A stretch of 38,488 nt of DNA from a virus, in the IMG/VR virus record IMGVR_UViG_3300045119_000248, positions 1 through 38,488 of that record. One strand, 5' to 3'. The notes under the pieces were generated by a model. It saw only the letters and a program-made list of their open reading frames with translations, had not been told where the DNA came from and made no database searches. Position 1 is the stretch's first letter; each line of letters begins with the position of its first letter. A program made the position numbers and the translations under genes. Below, piece by piece: positions 20,790-28,755 of this stretch.

Positions 20790-22883
20790 CTAAACCGTTA
20801 CAACAGCCGGCCCGTCAGGCGCAGAAGCGTTTCCGCTCACGCTCTCGGCCGTGGCCCAGTAATTCCAGGTGCCCGCACCGGGCGTGTCCGTCTTCTCGAG
20901 CTTCTGGTTCGGTGCGCAGTAGATCGGCCCCGAGATATCGACTGCCGACCCGAACGCGCCGCTGCCGCGATAGACCCTGCAATCGCTCACGTTCGGATCG
21001 TTCGGCGCGAAGAAATCGACGGTTACAGTGCCGCTCGCATTGATCGCCGTAATCCCGGTTGGAGAACTGGGTGCAGCAACGCCGCCGACATCGACGCCAT
21101 CAACCTCGACATATTCGCTGGCCGCGCCATCCTGCGTCGTGAACCAAACCCGCACGTCGTAGGAGTTCTTCGGCAGCGAGCCTGACGTACCGGTGTAAGC
21201 CCCAATTGCGACGGGGATTATGGTCCAGACAGAGCCACTGTGGATCGTGTATTCGGCGTGGAACTGAAGATCCTGGCGGTCTGTCGGCACATCGCACGAT
21301 GCTGTCAGCGTGCCATCCGTCGACGTCACCATGACGCCGGTCGGAACTTCGATGTCGCCGCCCGTGCTGCCCGGGTTTGGCGCCGGGATCACACCTTCCT
21401 CTGTCGCGGCGTCGAACTCGTAGACGGCTGAGTCCGCGGCAGAGACGCCAATGATGCAGGATTGCGTTGCCATATCGATCTTGAACGACGTCACGTCCAT
21501 GTCGAGATCGATCGTCGGGCGCCCCCTGCGTTTGATCGTGACGTGAATGCGGCGCTCGCCAAGAGCATTGAGGCCGAACAGGTCTGTCGTGATCGTGCCG
21601 GCGCGCTCGGGGTTGGCCCGCGACGCCGCAATCTTCATCATCCTGCGCGCCTGGTTGTGCGACGGGCAGTAGGTGAGGTCGATCTGTCGGTCGATGACGG
21701 TTCCGCGCGCGGAGATATCCGCTTCGTCGCGCCACGGAAGGGCCTCTACAGGCTGGTAGTCGTTGTTCGGGTCGGTGAAGGTGGCCCGTATTTCATTGGC
21801 TGTCCGAAGCGGTCCCAGGCCCTTCGGAAGGCTGAACGAGCGGATGTGATCCTGCGTGATCGTGACCGATGGCGCTTGCCATTCGCCAACTTCAAGCGCG
21901 ATTGAGCCGTCCGCCTGCATCGCAAGCCAGCCATCGCAACTGTCGCTGAACGCCTTGAGAACGTCCTTTGGTGCCGTCGGCAGATCGTATCCGCCGTCGA
22001 TGCGATAGCGCCTGTCTGTACCGCCAGCGAGAAGCGGCACGCTCTGATCGGAGACCGTGGCGGCATACTGCCACTTTGCGAGCGATGGCAGCACGGCGGC
22101 GCGCGGCAAGCGCATTCCGTCCTTATGCGTCAGGTAATCGAAGATGACCCACGCCGCATTGTCGTAGCCGAGATTCCAAGTCGACCGATCGTCGATGTTC
22201 TGTTCCGGGTCGGTTCCGTTCCAAACGCGGTCGCCATGGATGACGCCGCGGTATGGCTGCGCCCCTCCTGGATAGTATTTTGTGAAGTCGGTTTGCTTCA
22301 CGCTACGCTGGACAAGCAGGATATTTGCGATGCCCTGAAGGCGATGTGCCGTCGTCCAAAGGACGGGAAAATTCGATATCAGCCGCGCGTTCGCGAGCTG
22401 GTCGTCCAGGCCCGTCTGGACGTCGATTGCAAAGACGCCAGAGCCCCAATAGTCCCGTGTCATGGATGGCGGGGCAATCACGTCGCCACCGCCGGCCAGC
22501 GTTACCCGCCTATCGCCAATCCAGTGCTCTAGAAATTCGACTTCGTGAGTAGCGACCAGAACGAGATCGAAGAGTGATCCGTTGCCGTTGCTGCGGAGGA
22601 ACGCGTGGACCCCACCGGCCTTATCCTTGCCGTAATAGCGCCTGCGGCTTGGGACCGGCTGGCGAACTGTGAACTGCTGGGCGGCCGACTTCTGCCCAGG
22701 GCCCGAGATCAGCGATGTGAGCCCAAATTCCAGAGCGCCGAGTGCGATAGTGCCGACGGCGCCTGCGACGGTGACACTTCCCACAATTACCGTGGCCGAG
22801 GTCGCGGCTGCCGCTGCGGCCGTTGAACCAGCCACCGCATAGGCCGCCGAGACAATTGCAGCGCCAAGGCTCGCAGGCATCAC
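20790..22883 (-). CDS. Tail tip / host-specificity protein (gpJ-like), 697 aa
   Basis: A large tail-tip protein, ATGA-coupled to the GNAT gene. The N-terminal 60 residues are hydrophobic and Ala/Gly-rich (ATVIVGSVTVAGAVGTIALG), followed by the central hub region (FDYLTHKDGMRLP, DVLKAFSDSCDGWLAMQADG) shared with lambda gpJ-type proteins, and a C-terminal pair of fibronectin type III-like domains (SPTGITAINASGTVTVDFFAP and PGAGTWNYWATAES). It would form the tail baseplate hub and contact the receptor together with the spikes that follow. Confidence 0.8.
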   Translation of the reverse strand: MMPASLGAAIVSAAYAVAGSTAAAAAATSATVIVGSVTVAGAVGTIALGALEFGLTSLISGPGQKSAAQQFTVRQPVPSRRRYYGKDKAGGVHAFLRSNGNGSLFDLVLVATHEVEFLEHWIGDRRVTLAGGGDVIAPPSMTRDYWGSGVFAIDVQTGLDDQLANARLISNFPVLWTTAHRLQGIANILLVQRSVKQTDFTKYYPGGAQPYRGVIHGDRVWNGTDPEQNIDDRSTWNLGYDNAAWVIFDYLTHKDGMRLPRAAVLPSLAKWQYAATVSDQSVPLLAGGTDRRYRIDGGYDLPTAPKDVLKAFSDSCDGWLAMQADGSIALEVGEWQAPSVTITQDHIRSFSLPKGLGPLRTANEIRATFTDPNNDYQPVEALPWRDEADISARGTVIDRQIDLTYCPSHNQARRMMKIAASRANPERAGTITTDLFGLNALGERRIHVTIKRRGRPTIDLDMDVTSFKIDMATQSCIIGVSAADSAVYEFDAATEEGVIPAPNPGSTGGDIEVPTGVMVTSTDGTLTASCDVPTDRQDLQFHAEYTIHSGSVWTIIPVAIGAYTGTSGSLPKNSYDVRVWFTTQDGAASEYVEVDGVDVGGVAAPSSPTGITAINASGTVTVDFFAPNDPNVSDCRVYRGSGAFGSAVDISGPIYCAPNQKLEKTDTPGAGTWNYWATAESVSGNASAPDGPAVVTV

Positions 22884-23335
22884 AACACCTTCGCGTAGAC
22901 GGTCTCGATAGGTGTGTGACCGAGGTGCTCAAGCAATCTGCCGGCCGCCGGGTGTGCGTTCTTGGCGCGCGTGTGCAGCACCTTCACCCCTTGGGCGCGC
23001 AGTTCGGTTTCGCAGAACTTGAATAGCCTCAGCGCAACCGTTGGCAGGCGTAGTTCGGGATCGATCCAGAAGATGTCAGACTCCGCCCATCGCGTCTTGC
23101 GGTAGTGGATCTGGAAAAATGTGAAATAGATCGCGTATCCAACCAGCCTGTCGCCATCTCTCGCCGTACAGATCAGCAGTTGGCCGCGCTCGTCTAGCGT
23201 GGCGTAGAGAGTGTAGTCCGGATCGAGTTTGACCGTGTCCTTGTTGCGGGCGATCTCTTCCCAATGCCGGACCAGCAGCGGCTTGATGTCGCCGATGACA
23301 TCGGCATACCGCTCGGTCCTGAATGCAATCGCCAT
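22880..23335 (-). CDS. GNAT-family acetyltransferase in the tail module, 151 aa
   Basis: A 151-residue GCN5-related acyltransferase: central strand GDRLVGYAIYFTFFQIHY, then the strand-helix IFWIDPELRLPTVALRLFKF where acetyl-CoA pyrophosphate is usually bound (the usual Q/RxxGxG/A is degenerate here), and a C-terminal ARDNxAAxRLLEHLG-like segment (KNAHPAAGRLLEHLGHTPIE). It lies between tail genes and is coupled to both, so it is co-expressed with the tail tip. Possible target: tail tip or host protein. Such GNAT genes recur next to tail genes in phages of this kind. Confidence 0.75.
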   Translation of the reverse strand: MAIAFRTERYADVIGDIKPLLVRHWEEIARNKDTVKLDPDYTLYATLDERGQLLICTARDGDRLVGYAIYFTFFQIHYRKTRWAESDIFWIDPELRLPTVALRLFKFCETELRAQGVKVLHTRAKNAHPAAGRLLEHLGHTPIETVYAKVL

Positions 23336-23936: not shown

Positions 23937-24644
23937 TCACGTCAGGTCTTCGATAAACTGGACTGTCTGCGACCCGATGAGGCCGGCATTCAGGCTAAGG
24001 CTCATCTGGTTGCCGTCGATGAGCGTCACCTGACACGACGGATCGTTGAAGTCCGCGATATCGCCAGCGAATGCCGCTGCCCGCGCTTCCGGAAGCGTCT
24101 GGCATGTGAAAACCGGATGCGCGCCGCCCCTGTCGACGGAAAGAACGCGCACGATCTTGTAAAGATACCTTCCGCCGAGAGTGTAGAGATGGCCACCTTC
24201 GGGATCGGCTCCCGCGATCATCTCAAGCTGCATCATCGTGTCACCGAGCGCGACCGGCGCGGCGAGGACACATTCGATTGGATCGTCCAGAAATCCCGCA
24301 CCATCGTCGAACGACGCACCGTCGTCGAACTCCACAGTCGAAATCGGCATAATCGGATTGCCGCTGCCATCAAGTGGCCAAGGCGCGCGGAGCAAATCGA
24401 GCACTGAGACGATGATTGACGTGACCGGGCCCTGAAGGATTCCATCAAGAGCGCGCCAGCACTTGATCTTCTGCGCATTACCGACGGACACGCCGGTATA
24501 GGTGATGTACCAGCAGCCTGAGTCCGATTGCTGCCATTGCGAACCACCCGACAATGCCGGGCCACCACTGACCGGGCGCGAGTTCGAATCGACATTAATC
24601 GCTGTGGGCGAGAGCGCATCGATGGGCCAGCGTTCCGCCGTCAT
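23937..24644 (-). CDS. Tail protein, 235 aa
   Basis: ATGA-coupled to the tape measure gene. Begins MTAERWPIDALSPTAINVDS and is beta-rich throughout (SDSGCWYITYTGVSVGNAQK, LSVDRGGAHPVFTCQTLPEA). No signal peptide or membrane segment. By position it is a distal-tail or minor tail protein acting with the 195-aa protein next to it. Family not recognised with certainty. Confidence 0.7.
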   Translation of the reverse strand: MTAERWPIDALSPTAINVDSNSRPVSGGPALSGGSQWQQSDSGCWYITYTGVSVGNAQKIKCWRALDGILQGPVTSIIVSVLDLLRAPWPLDGSGNPIMPISTVEFDDGASFDDGAGFLDDPIECVLAAPVALGDTMMQLEMIAGADPEGGHLYTLGGRYLYKIVRVLSVDRGGAHPVFTCQTLPEARAAAFAGDIADFNDPSCQVTLIDGNQMSLSLNAGLIGSQTVQFIEDLT

Positions 24645-27043
24645 CCGAACCTCGCCTGCGCGTCGGACATCAGCGCCGGGAGGTCACGCTTTACGCTCGA
24701 ATAGCCTAGCGAGGCACCTTGCTGTGCTGCGTGTAGCATCGTCTTCTTAAGCGCCTCGTCGCCGTAGACATGGCCCTGCACCACGACCGTTACCGACGGC
24801 ACTTGCTGCTGCTGACCCGGCGTCCTCACGCTGACACGCTCGCCCGGCGTTGCGCGGAACGCGACAAACTGAGAATCCGTGCCACCACTACCGCCGACAT
24901 CGAATTCGCCGCCGGCAGCGAATCCGAAGAAACTTGCGATATCGGCGAAGATACCAGCGCCGTTGAGGCCGGGAATTCCGAGGCCACCAACGGGCACGAC
25001 GTAAATCGGGTTTAACTGCGTGCCGTCCGGCTTGCTCCCCGATGGGCCGCCGATCAGCGAATTCAGTTGGTCCCCGATAGGACCGAGGATGTATTTCTCG
25101 ACGCTCTTCTTGGCGAGATCGGCCATGATGTCGAGTGGCAGTTGCTTCAGCGCCTTGCCGAGCGATTCCGTACCCTTGATGAGGCCCTCGATGTCGTTGC
25201 CGACTTGGTTCAGACCGTCGGCCGCGACCTGCTTGAGGCTTTGGTTCCAGTCCGCGTTCTCGGCGTCGATGAACTGCTGCAGTGCGCCAGCCTGCTGCCG
25301 CTGAAGGTCAAGCTGTCGCTGCTCCGCCTGCGCCTGCAGTGCCGCGCGCTTGTCGTCGGCTGTCTGCTCGATCGTGGTCTTGTCGAGCTGGTATTCGGCG
25401 AACGCAACGCTGTCTTTTGCGTAGCCAGCGGCCTTTGCGTCCAGCGCGGCGATCTCTTTGTCACGCTCGGAATCAATGGCCTTGCTCTGGTTGGTGAGCC
25501 AATCGTTGATCTGCTTTTCTGCTGCGCCGTAGTAATCGGATGTCCCTTTGAGAAGGTCGATCCGGAACGCGTCCTGCGCCTCGACCATCTGCGCATAGGC
25601 TTCGTCCTGCTTGTGCGTCAGATCCTCGAAGAGCTTCTCTTGGTCGGCGACGTCCTTTACGAGGGTCGCGGCCCAGCGCTGTTCCTCGTTCAGCCATTTG
25701 TTGAACGCTTCTTGAGCCTTGCGCGCCGCCTCGGACGCCTTGTTGGCGAATTCTGAGGCGTGCTGGGCGTTGTATTCATTCGTCTCTGAGCCGGTGATAG
25801 ATGCAAGCTGGCCCGCATATGCCGGATTGTTGCGCAACTGATCGGGCGAGATTCCAGCGGCCTTTGCGGCCTCGTTGATCGCCTTATCGATCGCTTGCGT
25901 GAGCTTCGGCTTGGAGAGTTCGGCGGCCTGCTGATCGAGCGACTTGCCAAACTGACCAAGCGCAGCCGTGGAGTCGATGACAGCCTGATTATGCTTCAGG
26001 GCAAGAGCGAGGCCGCTGAAATCGGTTTCGTGCGGACTTGCGCCACCTGGTGCGTGGCCGCCACCACTGACGACGCCGAATTTGCTGCCACCAAGAACAC
26101 CGCCGCCAAACAGGCTAAGCGCGTTTATAAACCCTTCGGACTGGCCGACCTTCTCAATCTCTTTGAGAGATTCGGTGATGCCGTTCAGAAATCTTGTCGC
26201 TACGCCCCCGGCATGGTCGCTCTGGCCCATCGTGGTGAGCAGATGGTCCCACGCTTCGCCGAGATTATGCGTCGCGCCCGTGAGGCCCTGATCCTGCGCT
26301 GCCCCCGCGCCGCCGATGCGACCTTCCAGCGCGGTCAGAACAACATTGAGCGCGCCAGCGTGATCCCCCTGCTCGTCGAAATCCTTGATCTGCTGCTTCT
26401 GCTGCGCGGAAAGCGCGATGCCCGCGCGCTGAAGCTGCGTGACCGTTCCTTCCGACGCCAACGCGATCGCTTTGACTGCGGCGGCCAGATCGCCATGGAA
26501 AACCGGACTCGCCGCGAGATCGGACGCCGCGTCGAGCGTGCGCTGGAACGCTTTTGGGCCCTCCACGCCGAATGTCGCCAATTCCTCGGCCGCGGCAAGG
26601 ACGGATTCGCGGGTCTGGAGCGTGTGCTCAGAAATACCCTCCGCCATCGACGCGATCTGTTCGCGCGTGACGCCGGAAGCAAAGCCCGTCGCCTGCAGCA
26701 CCGCGTCCACGCCGCGCATGGCCTGCTCGTAGGCTTCTGCCTTGGAGACGCTCTGCTCGAGCACGAGACCAAAGCCTGCAGCCGCAGCGCCAGCCGCAAG
26801 CCAGCCGCCGCCCAGCGTGGACAGAATACCGCCAAGCGGGCCGAGACTGGACGTGTACTGACGCGCGATCCCGTCCGCTTCCTCGAGCGTGGCACCAAAG
26901 AGTCTCGAGCCGCCCGTCGCCGTGTCGAAGTTCAGCCGCTTAAGCGCCGCTTCTCCGGTGGCGCCAAGCGAAAGCAGCGCGGCCTTGACCTGCTCGCTGC
27001 CTTCGACCGAGAGCCGAACTGCGACCTGGTTAGTTTGAGCCAT
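24641..27043 (-). CDS. Tail tape measure protein, 800 aa
   Basis: An 800-residue tape measure that sets tail length and may help DNA delivery. N-terminal MAQTNQVAVRLSVEGSEQVK, an Ala/Gly-rich hydrophobic region (GGWLAAGAAAAGFGLVLEQS) about residue 75-100, long helical stretches with regular heptads in the middle (QLDLQRQQAGALQQFIDAEN), and a C-terminal Gly-rich part with FGFAAGGEFDVGGSGG typical of lambda-type tape measures. Its start overlaps the end of the GT frameshift frame by 14 bp. Large size predicts a tail of moderate length. Confidence 0.88.
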   Translation of the reverse strand: MAQTNQVAVRLSVEGSEQVKAALLSLGATGEAALKRLNFDTATGGSRLFGATLEEADGIARQYTSSLGPLGGILSTLGGGWLAAGAAAAGFGLVLEQSVSKAEAYEQAMRGVDAVLQATGFASGVTREQIASMAEGISEHTLQTRESVLAAAEELATFGVEGPKAFQRTLDAASDLAASPVFHGDLAAAVKAIALASEGTVTQLQRAGIALSAQQKQQIKDFDEQGDHAGALNVVLTALEGRIGGAGAAQDQGLTGATHNLGEAWDHLLTTMGQSDHAGGVATRFLNGITESLKEIEKVGQSEGFINALSLFGGGVLGGSKFGVVSGGGHAPGGASPHETDFSGLALALKHNQAVIDSTAALGQFGKSLDQQAAELSKPKLTQAIDKAINEAAKAAGISPDQLRNNPAYAGQLASITGSETNEYNAQHASEFANKASEAARKAQEAFNKWLNEEQRWAATLVKDVADQEKLFEDLTHKQDEAYAQMVEAQDAFRIDLLKGTSDYYGAAEKQINDWLTNQSKAIDSERDKEIAALDAKAAGYAKDSVAFAEYQLDKTTIEQTADDKRAALQAQAEQRQLDLQRQQAGALQQFIDAENADWNQSLKQVAADGLNQVGNDIEGLIKGTESLGKALKQLPLDIMADLAKKSVEKYILGPIGDQLNSLIGGPSGSKPDGTQLNPIYVVPVGGLGIPGLNGAGIFADIASFFGFAAGGEFDVGGSGGTDSQFVAFRATPGERVSVRTPGQQQQVPSVTVVVQGHVYGDEALKKTMLHAAQQGASLGYSSVKRDLPALMSDAQARFG

Positions 27044-27778
27044 CCGAGCGTTCTCTCATTCCGGCAAGCGCGCCGGTTTCAATCCGCGCGAGGAAGTAGG
27101 ATGCGACGGATGCCTGGATGCCTTCCGAAGCGGCCAGCGCAATCGCGGCGCCCCAGTCGAACCCGACAGCAACTCCGCTCAGTCCGGCCCGCTGCATGAC
27201 ACCAGGACGAACTGCAATTGCATATGCCGCCATTCCTTCGAAGCTCGCGGGTGTGTTCGCTACGAAGGGGCAGACGCTGCCGCAATTTTTTCCGAGAGAC
27301 TTACAGCCCCGGCAGTATTCGCCGCCCCCGCGCCAGTCCCATTGCGCAAGGGCGGCTAAGCGTTTCCCTCTGCGGCCATCAGGACGTTGGCCGTCGTGTA
27401 CTGATCGAGGAAGGACGAGCCGATCGTTGGAATGGAGACGAGAGCAGAGATATTTTCGGGCGTGACCTGTGCGTCTGTCGTGCCATCTGCGTCTTTCACG
27501 CCATTCCAGTCCACGATGCCGTAGTGGGCCAGCTCCTTCGCGAACGCCGCCTGCACGAACGCGCGACGAAAGTTCGCGTCTCCGCCTTCGAACGAGCCAT
27601 CGTTCGCGACCGTCGTGCCGTCGCCGATCGAGGCGTCCGTGACTGCACTCAGGAGGGCCGATCGCGCGGCGCCGAGCGCGGCCTGGTACACCGTCATCGT
27701 GCACGGCCTGACGGTCACGGTCACTCCACCAGGGAGATTGAGCGGGTAATTCTCGGTCGGGAGAGAAAGACGGATCAT
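27030..27778 (-). CDS. GT-type tail assembly chaperone, -1 frameshift fusion product, 249 aa
   Basis: A canonical slippery heptamer, GGGAAAC, lies at 27368-27362 in the frame G-GGA-AAC just before the stop of the 140-residue upstream frame. A -1 shift there joins residues 1-139 to a 110-residue extension that starts RLAALAQWDW and contains four cysteines (YCRGCKSLGKNCGSVCPF), then VANTPASFEGM and a helical C terminus. The extension ends at 27030, overlapping the tape measure start. Siphophages make two tail chaperones this way (lambda gpG and gpGT), and a Cys-containing extension in this place is known from related phages. The extension has no good start of its own. Confidence 0.8.
27356..27778 (-). 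CDS. Tail assembly chaperone (G-like), 140 aa
   Basis: The 0-frame product, begins MIRLSLPTENYPLNLPGGVT. Beta-strand N terminus, then helices (AALGAARSALLSAVTDASIG and RRAFVQAAFAKELAHYGIVD) and a C-terminal tail ending at TAG after the slippery site. It overlaps the preceding tail tube stop by one base. Position between tail tube and tape measure fits a lambda gpG analogue. Confidence 0.75.
   Translation of the reverse strand: MIRLSLPTENYPLNLPGGVTVTVRPCTMTVYQAALGAARSALLSAVTDASIGDGTTVANDGSFEGGDANFRRAFVQAAFAKELAHYGIVDWNGVKDADGTTDAQVTPENISALVSIPTIGSSFLDQYTTANVLMAAEGNA
27362..27368 (-). promoter_or_regulatory. Programmed -1 ribosomal frameshift site (GGGAAAC)
   Basis: X-XXY-YYZ heptamer G-GGA-AAC in phase with the 0 frame, one codon before the TAG at 27358-27356. 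After slippage, translation resumes with CGC. Lambda uses the similar GGGAAAG. Confidence 0.8.
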
Positions 27779-28755
27779 CAGTAGCTCGGGACGTCGTTGA
27801 TGAGGGTGACGATGATCGAGGCGGTCGCCGAAGGGTCACGCGAGGCCTGCCACGCATATTTCACGTCGACGCCTCCGGGCCCTTTGATGCCGACGGACGG
27901 CTTCGCCCATGAGATGCGCGGTGCGACAAAGCTCACGAGCGCCGTGCTCGAGATCTTATAACCGAACGCCAGGGCCCCAAAGCCAGCCGAAGCCGCTAGC
28001 TCGAACAGCGTCATGTCGTCGAGGCGAATCTGGGCGTCTCCAGACGCCATGAACTGGCCTCCGTCAGCTCCGATGATGAGGCCCTGTGTAGCTGCGCCGC
28101 TCGGCGCGTCCACATTGTTCGATCCCTTGAGCGTGGCGCCGGTGAGGTCTGGGATCGTCGTCGCAGGCGACGTCGAGCCCGCTGTGTCGATATCGAAGGT
28201 CCCCTGTATCTGCGAGAAGGGCGTGTAGCTCCTGATCGTGGGCGTTCCGCCTTGCGTGGCAGTGTTCTCCGCTTCGTTTTGCGCAACGAGACCGAGCACG
28301 AGTTTTGGGGTCCCCGACGGCGAGATGTCGAAATCGAACGTGTCGACGACGCATCCGGTATAGTCGAGCCATTTTCCAGCGCCGGAATTTGCATCCGGAT
28401 AGCCCGCTTCGAGCGAGAAGGACGGGAGTGCCGATGCGGCGATTGCCTTGAACGTGTGCGTGTAAGGTCCTGAACCTGCCACGGCGTAATTTCCGAGCGC
28501 GAGTTTCAGCCAGCGGCCGATGTTGCGCAGATCGACAGGGACCGTGAGTTTCGGTTTGAATATTCTCGCCTTCCGGAACGGATCAAGCATCTCGCGATGG
28601 CCCATTCCGATGGCGGGGTCATTCTCAAGATCGGCCGCTACGCCTGGATCGAAGTCCAGAATTGGCACTTCTTCCCAGTTTCCTGTCGGAAGCGTGCCGT
28701 AGGTCGTCTCCGTCTTCGTCAGGAACGTGATATGCGCGCCAGTCTGTCTCGCCAT
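27778..28755 (-). CDS. Major tail tube protein, 325 aa
   Basis: Begins MARQTGAHITFLTKTETTYG and is rich in beta strands with Gly/Ser/Thr turns (VPVDLRNIGRWLKLALGNYA, PSFSLEAGYPDANSGAGKWL, SATITV-like repeats). The TETTYGT start and length around 320 residues match major tail proteins of this kind. The C terminus SASIIVTLINDVPSY-like segment ends in the sheet that stacks rings. Position before the G/GT chaperone supports this role. Confidence 0.8.
   Translation of the reverse strand: MARQTGAHITFLTKTETTYGTLPTGNWEEVPILDFDPGVAADLENDPAIGMGHREMLDPFRKARIFKPKLTVPVDLRNIGRWLKLALGNYAVAGSGPYTHTFKAIAASALPSFSLEAGYPDANSGAGKWLDYTGCVVDTFDFDISPSGTPKLVLGLVAQNEAENTATQGGTPTIRSYTPFSQIQGTFDIDTAGSTSPATTIPDLTGATLKGSNNVDAPSGAATQGLIIGADGGQFMASGDAQIRLDDMTLFELAASAGFGALAFGYKISSTALVSFVAPRISWAKPSVGIKGPGGVDVKYAWQASRDPSATASIIVTLINDVPSY

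Follow-up and report, generated by a model that had tools for sequence, protein, structure and literature searches.

In phage lambda, the tail assembly proteins gpG and gpGT are reportedly produced through a programmed −1 frameshift, work that is credited to Levin (1993) and Xu (2004), and in phage HK97 a −1 frameshift is annotated for gp13/gp14, between the major tail subunit and the tape measure. The subject of this study is a similarly placed gene pair in a virus record from IMG/VR (IMGVR_UViG_3300045119_000248), of which the whole stretch of 38,488 nucleotides (38.5 kb) was analyzed and is called the window below. On the basis of its sequence and of comparison with relatives, we hold with high confidence that this pair is expressed as a G/GT tail chaperone by programmed −1 ribosomal frameshifting and that the frameshifted product carries a conserved four-cysteine (Cys4) extension. 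G/GT frameshifting is described as widely conserved among long-tailed phages in PMC5009743. The Rhodobacter RcC phages, RcKemmy among them, resemble the window at genes 15/16 in having a homologous extension, the heptamer GGGAAAC, the Cys4 motif, and a hairpin, and in RcKemmy, RcKai, RcKvothe, and RcDormio the same layout is already annotated as a joined coding sequence (CDS), "tail assembly chaperone." They differ from the window in that their extensions are only 27 to 32% identical to its extension and the stop of their 0 frame comes about 30 codons later. According to PMC8601537, most of its Rhodobacter phages show tail-chaperone frameshift sequences, with RcZahn as the exception. The G/GT mechanism and the joined annotations in the RcC records are therefore already known, while the extent of the Cys4 branch, a quantified hairpin, and the link to the families DUF7697 and DUF1799 are new within the literature searched. 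What the window shows is thus an ordinary mechanism whose extension is distinctive and conserved, a widespread variant.

All features described here lie on the minus strand. The first open reading frame (ORF) of the pair (27356..27778) encodes a G-like protein of 140 amino acids, and its 3′ end reads GAG GGA AAC GCT TAG. The slippery heptamer G_GGA_AAC, in −1 phase, occupies 27362..27368, one codon ahead of the stop TAG (27358-27356), just as the first-pass annotation of this DNA had read it. The −1 frame, which begins RLAALAQWDWRGGGEYCRGCKSLGKNCGSVCPF, is open for 110 codons (27030..27362) as far as a TAA at 27032-27030, and its end overlaps the tape-measure ATG at 27043. The predicted fusion of G and extension has 249 amino acids (139 + 110). 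The pair sits between the tail tube and tape measure genes, a position that had been claimed earlier and that the Pfam and PHROGs matches of both neighbors support. The product of the first ORF matches phrog_313, "Tail assembly chaperone" (E value, 2.9e-8), could be aligned with 51 homologues, and gave an AlphaFold model with a predicted local distance difference test score (pLDDT) of 88.5. Its position, the phrog_313 match, and the joined CDS layout in the four Rc phages bear out the earlier identification as a GT chaperone.

Lambda resembles the window in the position of the pair, in an in-phase heptamer close to where the first ORF ends, and in a −1 extension that reaches up to the tape-measure gene, but its slip site is GGGAAAG and its gpT contains no cysteine, so the earlier statement that the cysteine site is missing from gpT was correct. 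No similarity to lambda was detectable by hhalign (probability, 3.6 for T and 0.1 for G), nor was sequence similarity to HK97 gp13 (0.6). A structural comparison of the G model by VIA-align placed the HK97 chaperone 2ob9 at the top of 54 rows (Z score, 4.8; root mean square deviation, 5.2; 93 residues), a low score that is nearly tied with that of an unrelated chain (Z score, 4.6), and Foldseek returned no match for the G model at an E value of ≤0.001.

The window contains 20 in-phase XXXYYYZ heptamers in 24 ORFs (9,326 codons); five of these are of the form XXXAAA[ACG], and the only GGGAAAC is the slip site. A heptamer at the end of the chaperone gene is unlikely to occur by chance, yet this is not decisive. 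The open −1 frame of 110 codons is weak evidence alone, given that base composition alone makes the chance of such a frame about 3% and that the frame is already open for 166 codons upstream.

Stronger evidence comes from relatives, which were gathered with a degenerate DNA pattern for the W-x-F/W...Y-C-x-x-C stretch; the slip site lies outside this pattern. At least 120 viral and at least 115 genomic stretches matched, and all counts built on them describe samples, not a census. Membership was assigned with a protein profile that runs from the Trp codon onward and excludes the heptamer (E < 1e-4); its 62 training rows, the window and 61 viral loci, influence membership and not the heptamer count. 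Among the matches listed, 113 of 120 viral and 56 of 115 genomic stretches were members. In 112 of the 113 viral and 53 of the 56 genomic members (165/169), a −1-phase heptamer preceded the Trp codon by exactly 27 nucleotides (nt), whereas none of the 7 viral and 59 genomic nonmembers (0/66) had one there. The 165 heptamers comprise GGGAAAC (118), AAAAAAC (38), AAAAAAA (6), and AAAAAAG (3), with no others. The first-pass annotation had held that loss of the heptamer while both frames were kept would argue against programmed shifting; the slip site is in fact retained along with the two frames, both of which are conserved as protein in alignments of homologues.

The choice of codons at the slip site is equally constrained. 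A gene start was recognized in 154 of 166 sequences of all heptamer classes, and in the GGGAAAC class with such a start (window included) the final codons are GAG GGA AAC in 111/111; the slip glycine is thus GGA in every case, whereas the remainder of these genes uses GGA for 22 of 764 glycines. From residue 20 of the extension onward, 91 pairs differ at 858, 518, and 2,045 first, second, and third codon positions, respectively, with a median ratio of nonsynonymous to synonymous substitution rates (dN/dS) of 0.21, although these codon and selection comparisons use kindred sequences whose events are not independent. This pattern and the low dN/dS indicate that the extension is translated and under selection as a protein. 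Because the heptamer, the cysteines, and the slip codon are all kept among related sequences, a programmed −1 frameshift is very likely.

Two further searches agree with this. A tblastn search with the extension listed matches in 14 phage records, all of them starting at the first residue after the slip. As a second route, 289 alphaproteobacterial genomes were searched for DUF7697 (PF24752), a Pfam family that matches the C-terminal part of the extension, and 11 genomes gave matches; of the 11 loci first reached in this way (L252 to L262), 10 have both the heptamer and a Cys4 extension. One of these extensions, that of L260, closely resembles the extension of the window by eye. Searches of viral contigs with single window proteins yielded no relatives, whereas the degenerate pattern did, and a megablast comparison of the window's structural half with phages gave no match. 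The distance between heptamer and 0-frame stop differs among loci: in a set of 78 (L011 to L090 and the window), the stop lies one codon past the heptamer in 41, the window included, 20 to 57 codons past it in 36, and inside a mutated heptamer in 1 (L074).

The loci that lack an intact arrangement weigh against a programmed frameshift and have to be accounted for. Four members are without an intact heptamer: L074 has the variant GTGAAAC with the 0-frame stop within the slip site, L168 is near a contig edge and has an unrelated upstream sequence, L213 has Ns within the slip site, and L158 (profile E value, 5.5e-5), from which the motif is absent, is probably a chance match. In L258, the exception among the DUF7697 loci, the frame is broken by an internal frame change. 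Both L074 and L258 are probably decaying prophages or assembly errors.

The extension proper was modeled by AlphaFold from 62 sequences with a pLDDT of 91.3 and a predicted template modeling score of 0.83. The model consists of a helix (residues 2 to 22), a short helix (32 to 35), a third helix (41 to 50), two strands, and two C-terminal helices (70 to 79 and 84 to 106). The CxxC-x6-CxxxC motif noticed at first pass is present as Cys17, Cys20, Cys27, and Cys31 (27270..27314; codons 27314-27312, 27305-27303, 27284-27282, and 27272-27270), and the model places these residues where the first helix ends, ahead of the second. We carried out the alignment of relatives' extensions that had been suggested as a check: over 62 rows, Cys17, Cys27, and Cys31 are invariant and Cys20 is nearly so, Cys17 and Cys20 being part of the search pattern and Cys27 and Cys31 lying outside it. 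Four conserved cysteines in two pairs occur in 153/153 complete heptamer-bearing members among the matches listed. Of these 153, 127 fit a pattern whose second gap is short; in the other 26 the fourth cysteine stands further away, and a permissive pattern fits all of them. The motif is therefore family-wide and not peculiar to the phage of the window, a spread that the first-pass annotation did not mention.

We read this module as a knuckle, probably with a zinc ion in a structural role. Of the zinc site proposed earlier, the conserved motif and a confidently predicted fold stand, and metal binding is a prediction. Structural searches give a point against the frameshift model as a whole: Foldseek found no match for the extension model in PDB at an E value of ≤0.001 and none in BFVD at that threshold, where the best hit (E value, 0.18) was a "Tape measure chaperone" of Salmonella phage Shivani, and the best Z score from VIA-align was 3.5. 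The frameshift could be real while the four cysteines form disulfides or a metal-free core, which we regard as rather unlikely. It fits poorly with a CxxC followed by a second cysteine pair, often then P or PY, in an expected cytoplasmic assembly factor, and with the retention of all four cysteines throughout the complete members. The spacing of the pairs also varies among members, and variable spacing between cysteine pairs is a feature of zinc knuckles.

Downstream of the heptamer lies a putative stimulatory hairpin (27321..27356), likewise absent from the first-pass annotation. It begins after a spacer of 5 nt and has a 13-bp stem (27356-27344 paired with 27333-27321) and a 10-nt loop (27343-27334). 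Its minimum free energy is −28.6 kcal/mol, and a 54-nt piece has a z score of −2.94 relative to dinucleotide shuffles. A central hairpin of at least 9 bp was found in 140 of 142 distinct family sequences, which are GC-rich. In a synonymous randomization that preserves peptide and codon usage, 41 dereplicated sequences had a mean z score of −1.96, with 38 below 0 and the window at −2.17. When 16 offsets were scanned in these 41 sequences, the Stouffer score peaked at offset 0, right after the heptamer (−12.5); the overlapping offset 3 reached −8.0, and the other 14 ranged from −4.1 to +3.2. In an alignment of 40 sequences, a helix of 15 pairs and one bulge was paired in 72.5% of cells compared with 65.0 ± 1.2% after shuffling, a value reached by 0 of 500 shuffles (a count over kindred sequences, which does not amount to a probability), and slid versions of the helix gave 34.5 to 55.3%. 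The unbulged register, which the window uses, was paired in 66.5% of cells, and its +1 slide was paired in 58.2%.

Other results are less favorable to a stimulator. The z score of an 89-nt piece against dinucleotide shuffles was only −1.42, the synonymous z score was positive in 3 of the 41 sequences and above −1 in 11, and RNAalifold found no consensus pairs, perhaps because two stem registers alternate. The hairpin might simply follow from the use of GC-rich codons and from conservation of the peptide ALAxWHFGGG, an explanation that the base composition and the RNAalifold result would suit. We consider it improbable, given that the natural sequences fold better than their synonymous randomizations, above all at offset 0, and that lambda shows no downstream hairpin in the same test (z score, +0.95). 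We read the hairpin instead as a candidate ribosomal stimulator with some freedom of register. Structures downstream of such sites are not a new idea, since PMC3483164 describes GGGAAAC directly ahead of the stop in Burkholderia phage KL1, with mfold stem-loops after it.

The extension might also be a separate small gene of 67 amino acids that starts at an internal ATG (residue 44), the heptamer being incidental. The in-frame ATG, a point against the frameshift in that it makes a short separate product possible, is directly preceded by AAGGA; the DUF7697 and phrog_11212 models reach only the C-terminal part, and in two records the downstream CDS is annotated independently, from a start well beyond the slip site. 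Nevertheless, the first 43 residues, including all four cysteines, are conserved and lie upstream of that ATG, homology begins at the slip itself, the heptamer is kept at a fixed distance, and the Shine-Dalgarno-like bases abut the ATG with no spacer, which together make an internal-start gene very improbable. Slippage of RNA polymerase on an A run, for which runs of six to eight in some relatives (L003, L005, and L006) could be cited, deserves hardly any credence when GGGAAAC, with no long homopolymer, is the slip site in the window and in 118 of 165 relatives and a hairpin about 5 to 8 nt downstream suits a ribosomal stimulator.

Under a programmed ribosomal frameshift, for which sequence and comparison supply the layout, the heptamer, the hairpin, the purifying selection on the extension, and the conserved Cys4 motif, most ribosomes would stop at the TAG (27358-27356) and release the short G-like chaperone of 140 amino acids. 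A minority would pause at the hairpin, re-pair on G_GGA_AAC, and continue in the −1 frame, yielding the 249-amino-acid fusion with the junction EGN-RLA (or EGK-RLA). We infer the shifting in the cell and its rate, as we do the zinc binding and the binding partners. The extension would form one domain, with an N-terminal helix, a Cys4 knuckle with a probable structural zinc, and a C-terminal DUF7697 core common to DUF1799 extensions. By analogy with lambda, the G part would coat the tape measure and the extension would recruit tail tube subunits.

The nature of the slip site is a difficulty for this model, for the review PMC5009743 reports that A_AAA_AAC shifts far less than A_AAA_AAG in Escherichia coli, and the second slip codon is AAC in 156 of the 165 heptamers. 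The same review states that about half of bacteria have one lysine tRNA. Should the hosts possess two lysine tRNAs, AAG would serve poorly, and AAC combined with a hairpin would be a sensible alternative. Tentatively, and with considerable doubt, we suggest that a large group of tailed phages, mostly alphaproteobacterial, has an essential zinc knuckle in the chaperone end made by frameshifting, that tail-tube nucleation on the tape measure is zinc dependent, and that the family relies on AAC slip sites, with a strong hairpin as a requirement, because a second lysine tRNA in the host makes shifting at AAG-type sites inefficient.

Pfam and PHROGs cover only the C-terminal piece of the extension, through DUF7697 (52 positions) and phrog_11212 (55 positions). 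The DUF7697 match of the window (residues 63 to 108; 27036..27176; E value, 2.7e-8) scores 34 bits, above the curated cutoff of 27, and 41 of 66 extensions match the family at an E value of ≤0.01. In the Caulobacter vibrioides control genome, a DUF7697 match above the cutoff was also observed. The window extension has no match to DUF1799 (PF08809) at an E value of ≤1, and the DUF1799 matches of relatives are weak and below the cutoff wherever scores are given; NCBIfam contains no relevant model. DUF1799 loci nevertheless resemble the window in having an in-phase heptamer upstream of the domain (11/11) and a hairpin (mean z score, −1.92), and the two extensions have a common C-terminal core (hhalign probability, 73.6%; E value, 2.9e-5; 70 columns; 7 of 11 loci aligned). 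Unlike the window, these 11 loci lack the Cys4 knuckle by eye, and two carry cysteines in simple repeats. L265 and L267 have tandem cysteine-bearing repeats (ENCLQ-like and NTCQ-like) ahead of the C-terminal core.

Judged by sequence, DUF7697 and DUF1799 seem to represent two branches of a single T-like domain, which databases would know only in part because the frameshift junction was missed. In the literature searched, which covered few subscription papers, no paper names DUF7697, and the portions available give no description of zinc or a cysteine motif in the T part. Two families of "unknown function" would be explained in this way, since DUF7697, and DUF1799 by extension, seem to be the C-terminal portions of tail chaperone extensions that arise by frameshifting. 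Gene callers would clip these extensions at an internal start, and many prophage annotations lose the conserved Cys4 domain at this point. The loci also provide a clean collection of AAC-type slip sites that have hairpins, which allows the choice of slip site and the strength of the stimulator to be set against the lambda type.

The surrounding genes of the window follow the customary order of terminase, portal, major head, tail terminator, tail tube, tape measure, and further tail genes. The upstream neighbor (27778..28755) encodes the tail tube protein (Pfam Phage_tube_2 E value, 1.5e-27; phrog_290 E value, 1.9e-32). The downstream neighbor (24641..27043) encodes an 800-amino-acid tape measure protein, with matches to phrog_27166, "tail length tape measure protein" (E value, 2.4e-14), and to Pfam TMP_2 (0.0027, under its cutoff). 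Among the relatives, Nostoc phage Nsp-JY21 (L003) and Synechococcus phage Sc-Yong805-1 (L004) have identical tail-region reading frames although their stated hosts differ, and the tail tube gene of Sc-Yong805-1 is labeled tyrosine recombinase XerD, probably a mislabel. A small gene among the tail genes of the window (22880-23335) matches phrog_1249, "acetyltransferase" (E value, 8.1e-16), at a place where many phages of this type carry a peptidase.

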